A DNA stretch of 35,562 nt from Alloscardovia omnicolens DSM 21503 (GTDB taxonomy: Bacteria; Actinomycetota; Actinomycetes; Actinomycetales; Bifidobacteriaceae), in assembly GCF_000420505.1 (NCBI RefSeq), contig NZ_ATVB01000017.1:1-35562 (forward strand), given 5' to 3'. Under the pieces are notes generated by a model that saw only the letters and a program-made list of their open reading frames with translations, searched no databases and was not told the origin of the DNA. Position 1 is the stretch's first letter, and every line of letters begins with the position of its first letter. Below are positions 575-1,682 of this stretch, piece after piece. The translations under genes and the position numbers were made by a program.

Positions 575-602
575 AATCGACTTGTAACCTATATTTCGAA
601 TC

Positions 603-639
603 AGTAATGTGATTAGCGATACAGCTTTGCATCATTACT
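603..639. repeat. 7-bp inverted repeat upstream of the Abi-linked RNA
   Basis: AGTAATG (603-609) pairs exactly with CATTACT (633-639) around a 23-nt loop. It is immediately upstream of the candidate structured RNA at 660-791. Its role is unknown; it may belong to the same transcript or mark a promoter-proximal operator. Confidence 0.4.
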
Positions 640-660
640 CATGAGGAAATATTGACATAT

Positions 661-791
661 GGACCACTCTAGGAGGCATAATCTCAACACTCGTACTCTT
701 TTACAAGAGTTCTCAGTTGTGATATTATTCCTACTAACAGTAGCCCCCTAAGCCTCTTAATAATGCTCAAATCTGGGGGCTCTTTTTATTT
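661..791 (+). ncRNA. Candidate pseudoknotted RNA preceding the Abi/HEPN gene
   Basis: Hand folding shows three linked elements. Helix ATCTCAAC (681-688) with GTTGTGAT (716-723) has one T-T mismatch. It encloses hairpin ACTCTT (695-700) with AAGAGT (705-710) and a TTAC loop. AGCCCCC (742-748) pairs with GGGGGCT (775-781), followed by a T-run. AGGAGGC (671-677) pairs with GCCTCTT (752-758), which lies inside the loop of the previous helix, giving a pseudoknot. The RNA would end 11 nt before the Abi start codon. Structured RNAs have been reported next to AbiF-type genes, but I cannot verify homology here. A TTGACA box occurs at 652-657 but no convincing -10 was fixed, so the 5' end is uncertain. 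Confidence 0.5.
742..791 (+). terminator. Rho-independent terminator-like hairpin before the Abi gene
   Basis: A 7-bp GC-rich stem, AGCCCCC (742-748) with GGGGGCT (775-781), is followed by CTTTTTATTT. The 26-nt loop is longer than usual and contains the partner strand of an upstream helix, so folding may be conditional. It would separate a short upstream transcript from the Abi coding region, or attenuate read-through into it. Confidence 0.65.
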
Positions 792-802
792 ACAGAGGTA
801 AT

Positions 803-1682
803 ATGAAGTCAGCAAAAACCATCGATGAAATGATTAAACTTTTCGAAGATCGAGAGTTAATAATCGCTGATGAAGAGCATTTCCGTGACCTTTTGTATAA
901 CAACAATTATTATCGACTATCCGGGATATTTTCGTGTATTTCAAATAGATCCATCGAATGGTGACAATAGGTTCATTGCTGGCACTACTGAGGAAGATTT
1001 CATCACTCCGTATATTCTTGATGCTAAGTTGAGAGCGTTGATTCTTCAAGGAATCAGTATCCTAGAGATTACTCTACGTTCCCGTTTTGCGTATGAAATA
1101 GCACAAGACGGGCATGCTTATGATTACGTGTCGTTATCGGCTTACAAGCATTTGGCGAAGAGGAAGACTTCTTCTTATCAAGAGAGACTAATACTAAAAA
1201 TCAATGACTGGATAGAAAAATCTTCAGAGGTTTGTATTAGGCACTACCATGAAGTCGGGAAAGATATTCCCGTTTGGGCGGCTGTCGAAGTGCTGCCATT
1301 TGATACGGTTTCAAAGATGTTGTCTTCTCATATCGATTCGCAGGCGCTGAGACAAGTCTATAAATCAATAGGCTTACCTAAAAACCCGAGAATTGGGTCT
1401 AGCATTGTTCATGCGATGGTTTACCTTCGTAATTTGTGTGCTCACCATTCACGACTATGGAAACGAGAAACAATCATTTCAGTTCCTCATATTTCGTACG
1501 TTGAGGAAACAATTAATGGTATTTCTTATGAACAAAAATCCGTTGCGGCCTCTTTGATTCTTCTCATGCATATGGTGGATTTCATTAATCACAGCTCGGA
1601 ATATTCTGAAGAAATTCTAAGTTTCTTAAGAGCAAATAATTCCTATGTCAACGGGTTAGCTACTCCTGTTCACTGGAAATAA
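803..1682 (+). pseudogene. Abi_2-family (AbiD/AbiF-like) HEPN abortive-infection protein, frameshifted
   Basis: The gene begins at ATG 803 after an AGAGGT ribosome binding site. It encodes an N-terminus ending in NNNYYRLSG (to about 925) and continues in the next frame from YFRVFQID (927). Removing one base from the GGG at 923-925 restores a 292-residue Abi_2 protein. The YYRLSGY element is the typical family N-terminal motif. RNLCAHH (codons at 1428-1448) is the R-x4-H signature of HEPN RNases. Family members act in phage-triggered growth arrest or toxin-antitoxin pairs. As sequenced, an internal ATG at 870 would give 270 residues, but its first 19 residues are out of frame with the family. 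Possibilities are a real pseudogene, phase variation at the G-run, or a sequencing error. Confidence 0.82.

Follow-up and report, generated by a model that had tools for sequence, protein, structure and literature searches.

What is the structured RNA that stands before an Abi gene in Alloscardovia omnicolens DSM 21503, and what could such an RNA do where its toxin gene is broken or absent? We analysed a window of 35,562 nucleotides, which is contig 17 of a 1.85-Mb draft assembly (43 contigs). In this window an abiF RNA and an Abi_2/HEPN gene form a unit at 700-1682, between tRNA genes and a DHH gene. The unit is very probably an AbiF-type locus, with an RNA antitoxin and a HEPN toxin. The locus itself is ordinary, and its novelty is only that of a further member of the known, type III-like AbiF RNA-antitoxin kind. 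The part worth following is the RNAs without a toxin, above all those in phages.

Identity, extent and promoter of the RNA

The Rfam model of the abiF RNA (RF03085) matched the window at 744-780 with 51.8 bits (cut-off 37), on the same strand as the Abi_2/HEPN gene and 22 nt before it. This search had been suggested in an earlier note on the same DNA, which named a structured RNA beside AbiF-type genes; RF03085 is that known family. Also named there, and likewise in print, are RNA-HEPN pairs as antitoxin-toxin systems with a link to Cas13 (PMC12373285, PMC12737573, PMC12165695). Model R1, to whose seed the window belongs, scored 70.7 bits at 736-784. The features of the RNA and its surroundings are as follows.

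700-728, + strand: candidate promoter, TTTACA (700-705), 17 nt, TATTAT (723-728), with TG at 720-721 (extended -10); from a consensus scan
736-787, + strand: abiF RNA (AbiFr-type antitoxin RNA), start predicted at 735-736, end in the U tract 783-787; from R1, RF03085 and blastn
742-781, + strand: outer stem, 742-748 with 775-781, also a terminator-like hairpin; 97.5% paired, 5 of 7 pairs changed on both sides in 30 distinct sequences
751-767, + strand: inner helix, 751-753 with 765-767, loop 754-764, internal loop 749-750 / 768-774; 98.9% of cells paired

By blastn, similarity to the nearest relative (G007) begins at 735, and two loci without a whole gene, one of them with a short remnant, match the window at 735-785 and 735-786. 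Fourteen loci, chosen from the 26 distinct elements before any pair was counted, were aligned; the alignment is poor before 735 and shows full conservation from AACAG, 736, behind a weaker -10 signal. The RNA of the window is probably about 50 nt long, predicted to run from 736 to about 787, because conservation starts at 735 and the -10 box sits at the distance typical of the family.

The consensus scan for promoters found 4 sites where 3.2 were expected, which is near chance and not evidence alone. A -10-like hexamer begins precisely 13 nt upstream of the element in 14 of the 18 family elements that have an abi gene, the window included (10 with TGn), and in 23 of 53 without one (9 with TGn); the mean numbers of such hexamers per distant offset are 0.43 and 1.29, respectively. 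A second sample consisted mostly of Bacteroidales. Of its 73 loci with enough upstream sequence (7 of the 80 had too little), 45 have TAnnTTTG beginning 25 nt ahead of AAGCC and 55 have it there or one base to either side; the promoter box there is TAnnTTTG and not a sigma-70-type -10 as in the window. In the C. difficile RNA RCd22 the first abiF motif lies at 9-41 from the transcription start (PMC12373285). Position 744 of the window would likewise be +9 if the RNA starts at 736. The window locus gives a picture of where its predicted RNA would start, which the 37-nt Rfam model does not give. A promoter-like pair found by eye at 652-682 (TTGACA, 19 nt, CATAAT) was rejected, as, again by eye, it is not conserved in the alignment.

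A conserved hairpin

Covariation was scored in 32 family sequences (30 distinct) that were aligned by sequence only and later served as the seed of model R1. Over the outer stem and the inner helix together, 98.0% of cells were paired and 6 of 10 pairs had changed on both sides. The hairpin covariation score was reached by 0 of 500 shuffles and the number of pairs changed on both sides by 1 of 500, scores that kinship may inflate, as relatedness alone can lift sequences above shuffles even where there is no structure. Further pair types were no more numerous than in shuffles (12 vs. 11.5; 223 of 500 as high). In the inner helix, the pair 751/767 is AU in 17, CG in 10, GC in 1, GU in 1 and other in 1 of the 30 sequences, and the other two pairs are invariant.

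The U tract at 783-787 lies directly 3' of the hairpin, and the hairpin that the earlier note read just upstream of the gene is confirmed. A terminator scan made no call at this hairpin, because its loop exceeds the length that the scan allows. By eye, two other elements, L055 (G006:C19:43491-43553) and L016, carry extra hairpin-like bases in the loop, and the abiF loop seems to tolerate an insertion.

The toxin gene is split in the assembly

The gene downstream of the RNA was read as two frames.

794-798, + strand: AGAGG, ribosome-binding-site-like, 4 nt before the ATG at 803; read from the sequence
803-964, + strand: N-terminal abi part with its stop at 962-964; the first 40 residues align gap-free with the G007 relative (L003), then the frame changes
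870-1682, + strand: downstream open frame P0001, the remaining Abi_2/HEPN protein (PF07751; PADLOC AbiD; PDB 8vz6; 67% to G007)
1428-1445, + strand: RNLCAH, the HEPN R-x4-H motif, aligned with RNSCCH of 8vz6

P0001 belongs to Abi_2 (PF07751, 127.3 bits, cut-off 25.6), matches PDB 8vz6, an 'Abi family protein', with E 2.9e-11, and is homologous to its relatives from about residue 17. The Abi_2 protein with an R-x4-H signature described in the earlier note is thus present, with one motif that ends at 1445 and not at 1448. Pfam placed a single Abi_2 domain in P0001. A Cas13 protein of type VI CRISPR carries two HEPN domains; here P0001 contains a single R-x4-H, and the 53-residue N-terminal frame lacks the motif.

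The earlier note had overlooked a frame break near 925-935: the frame from the ATG at 803 stops at 962, and the remainder is in another frame. The abi gene of G007 is uninterrupted. After the break the two genes are 68% identical over 247 codons with dN/dS 0.23, a pairwise average that cannot date the break. Because the downstream frame is still open and constrained, the break is either recent or a sequencing error, and the assembled unit, with its toxin frame interrupted, does not amount to a working pair. Judged from the assembly, the toxin gene is damaged or mis-sequenced, and the locus is related to AbiF systems by descent. Searching the contig set with the downstream frame gave no relative; the whole-genome search found one.

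When positions 1-1800 of the window were compared with the G007 locus (blastn), similarity spanned 735-1684, covering RNA and gene, and both units adjoin the same DHH gene. Upstream of the abi unit the window has a tRNA-Tyr gene (369-453); the G007 locus (L003) shows tRNA-Ser and no tRNA-Tyr. The first bases of the contig (1-21) appear to be the 3' end of a tRNA-Ser gene, with 100% identity over 21 bases to the tRNA-Ser of G008 (L267). By eye, G005 and G008 have a different gene between tRNA-Ser and the DHH gene, the site of the abi unit here and in G007. A second, weaker abiF-like element lies elsewhere in the same genome (G000:C18:30619-30669, locus L134; 37.0 bits with R1), and the Abi HMM recognised no Abi frame up to 1.5 kb to either side of it.

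Toxin-less RNAs in the family

Model R1 found 71 elements in 56 of 189 family genomes (E 0.001 or better), of which 16 score below 50 bits and may in part be false. With the Abi HMM applied up to 1.5 kb to either side (some loci are shorter), 16 elements had an uninterrupted abi gene, 2 a split one (the window and G087), 6 a remnant and 47 none recognised; the remnant labels of G008:C4 (E 0.009) and G066:C7 (E 0.008) are weak and that of G060 was given by eye. At 50 bits or more, the 55 elements divide into 16 whole, 2 split, 5 remnant and 32 none. Scores of 60 bits or more were reached by 23 of the 53 elements without abi. Matches by tblastn at or before the RNA were discarded as artefacts of query frames running through the RNA.

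Upstream of several abi-less elements, the DNA matches that of a whole locus in another species (G013/G053, 92% over 617; G100/G102, 88% over 505; G063/G155, 86% over 528), which suggests that the toxin was lost and the RNA kept. Evidence for selection on the RNAs without a toxin is mixed. In some pairs, for example G102/G095 and G036/G155, element identity is 0.94-0.96 and the flanks are near-random (about 0.43-0.55), though flanks may also differ because of insertions or rearrangement. In close pairs of groups g3, g4 and g5, element and flanks have diverged to a similar degree, with g5 and part of g3 being low-scoring. We found no shared new partner gene downstream of RNAs without abi; by eye, neighbours looked unrelated except at orthologous sites.

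RNAs in other genomes and in phages

An exact pattern of 19 fixed bases of the conserved loop matched at least 119 genome stretches and 88 viral stretches, and 80 loci of each were examined. Loci counted as usable had 1 kb of downstream sequence and a flanking 6-pair stem; 23 genome and 38 viral loci were dropped on this basis. Among the matches listed, 57 genome loci were usable, with a full Abi frame in 33, a partial one in 8 and none in 16; the Abi frame of L162, L188 and L193 starts further upstream. By comparison, 1 of 42 usable viral loci had a full Abi frame and 41 had none (genome vs. viral, Fisher p = 1.6e-13).

A flanking stem of 6 pairs or more was present in 52 of the 80 viral loci (L270-L349, IMG/VR contigs). 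Shuffled flanks pass at a rate of 0.125, so about ten of the 80 could pass by chance. Rfam, given 18 loci hand-picked from these 52, reported RF03085 above the cut-off in 17, with no match in L271. The 52 loci comprise 46 distinct ones; a same-strand tRNA lies within 500 nt in 17, against an expectation of 7.1 for positions drawn at random within these loci, and an opposite-strand tRNA within 500 nt in none. The family form of the pattern had 0 viral matches. The viral elements of L321, L331, L324 and L336 look tandem by eye.

RF03085 was also present in 6 of 8 records of named phages. In the Mycobacterium phages DyoEdafos, Bromden and Chaser, RF03085 lies between tRNA-Gly and tRNA-Lys, and in Douge just before tRNA-Lys, at places where no feature is listed (L358-L361, in the order DyoEdafos, Bromden, Douge, Chaser). 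LittleE and Acinetobacter phage Acj61 also contain RF03085, with no tRNA listed in the stretch examined. The stretches examined of Faith1 and MiaZeal had no RF03085.

Alternative explanations

The earlier note proposed a guard RNA of about 130 nt, from 661 to 790, held together by a pseudoknot (671-677 with 752-758) and by helices within 685-719. Such an RNA is very improbable. The pseudoknot can be drawn in the window (7 pairs, one G-U), and 661-790 folds somewhat better than its shuffled versions do (z = -1.96, matched by 7 of 200). In the 14 loci, however, the pseudoknot was paired in 52.9% of cells vs. a shuffled mean of 50.3% (a value equalled or exceeded in 96 of 500 shuffles), and the upstream helices (685-688/716-719 and 695-700/705-710) in 33.9% vs. 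33.4%. The hairpin covaries. The pseudoknot and the upstream helices show no covariation in these 14 loci, which align poorly before 735, and lie before the inferred transcription start; both were rejected. The pseudoknot also conflicts with the conserved inner helix (751-753/765-767), because 752-753 cannot serve both, and the candidate promoter lies between its two arms. Nor is 661-790 a conserved region, as before 735 only the -10 box is conserved. The remark that this example may be new holds for a new member only; the RNA kind is known already and the 130-nt pseudoknotted fold is not conserved. An unlikely, though less remote, alternative is that the hairpin is only a terminator or attenuator of the abi gene, with no RNA acting in trans. 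This would suit the stem followed by the U tract. It would also suit C. difficile, where a terminator ahead of the gene ends most transcription and the element reduces expression of the gene (PMC12373285). Yet bases that a terminator need not keep are invariant in the loops of all 32 sequences (GCCT 752-755, TGC 764-766, CAA 768-770), and the element occurs without any abi gene and inside phage tRNA arrays.

The other two alternatives concern the missing toxin. It is quite possible, if somewhat short of even, that the living strain has an undamaged gene and that the break is an assembly or sequencing error; a draft of 43 contigs and a remaining frame still open and constrained fit this, while a second family locus with an RNA (G087) is likewise split into two frames and RNAs without a whole toxin gene are common in the family. 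An error would be compatible with the explanation we prefer, and the pair would then still work. The RNAs without a toxin gene could also be neutral, functionless leftovers of toxin loss, which comes close to an even chance. Element and flanks diverge alike where flanks still align (e.g., G119/G121, G121/G122, G053/G073 and, in g4, G031/G032), the -10 box is less frequent without abi than with it (23 of 53 vs. 14 of 18), scores of elements without abi fall to 26 bits, and finding elements by a model misses decayed ones, so that conservation is overrated. Against this stand the pairs in which the element is kept despite near-random flanks, the 23 elements without abi at 60 bits or more, and the viral loci, nearly all of which have the RNA but no Abi frame.

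A working model and its relation to known systems

At this locus we observe the parts, their order, the covariation of the hairpin and the spacing of the promoter; that the RNA is transcribed in this host, binds and neutralises the toxin, and that phage triggers the system, is inferred. The candidate promoter at 700-728 would yield an RNA of roughly 50 nt that folds into a single abiF hairpin. By analogy with the mapped C. difficile case, the hairpin may be a leaky terminator, giving mostly free RNA and few transcripts that reach the toxin gene. By homology, the RNA would bind the HEPN protein and block its RNase, and a phage that upsets the balance of RNA and toxin might thereby release the toxin and bring growth to a halt. 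Should the break be real, the RNA is probably all that the locus still produces.

The closest mapped system, AbiF-Cd/RCd22 of the C. difficile phi027 prophage, has a same-strand RF03085 RNA before an Abi_2 HEPN toxin, its first motif at +9 from the RNA start (predicted here) and a terminator before the gene (PMC12373285). The toxicity of AbiF-Cd is neutralised by its RNA, which binds the toxin directly and acts both in cis and in trans; changes that break the stem abolish neutralisation (PMC12373285). In contrast to the window, RCd22 has two motifs instead of one and AbiF-Cd lies in a prophage lysis module rather than between tRNA genes and a DHH gene (PMC12373285); the toxin frame is broken only in the window. 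PbAbiF-AbiFr of a Prevotellaceae bacterium (PDB 8vz6) has a homologous protein with an aligned R-x4-H, though distant in sequence, and binds one RNA per monomer (PMC12737573).

We hypothesize that the abiF RNA is also a free-standing antidote. Phages would carry it without a toxin, in many cases alongside tRNA genes, to silence AbiF-type HEPN toxins of the host, and bacteria of the family would keep it after toxin loss against incoming AbiF, the window being a snapshot with the RNA intact and the toxin just broken. We hold this tentatively, at rather less than even. In ToxIN, an RNA antitoxin holds an RNase toxin, and a phage RNA may mimic the antitoxin. A phage can carry such a pseudo-ToxI RNA, which is the known model for an RNA antidote (PMC3475682). 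The toxin of ToxIN is of a different family from AbiF, and ToxI is a pseudoknot repeat (PMC12373285), whereas no pseudoknot was supported at the window RNA. A phage abiF RNA is already in print for cyanophage S-CREM1, with three phage entries counted in Rfam (PMC9964418), and a review describes the role of phage abiF RNA as unconfirmed (PMC12197685). In the literature searched we found no proposal of phage abiF RNA as an anti-AbiF antidote; the primary abiF RNA and AbiF papers of 2017 and 2025, which may already contain the idea, lay outside this search.

The abiF RNA has been described as the cis antitoxin of AbiF; in 41 of 42 usable viral loci, and in many bacterial loci, it has no Abi gene beside it. 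If these RNAs are antidotes, they form a counter-defence made of RNA alone, directed at the toxin family proposed to be ancestral to Cas13. Some of them adjoin phage tRNAs that may answer the same damage, provided that AbiF cuts tRNA, as we infer.
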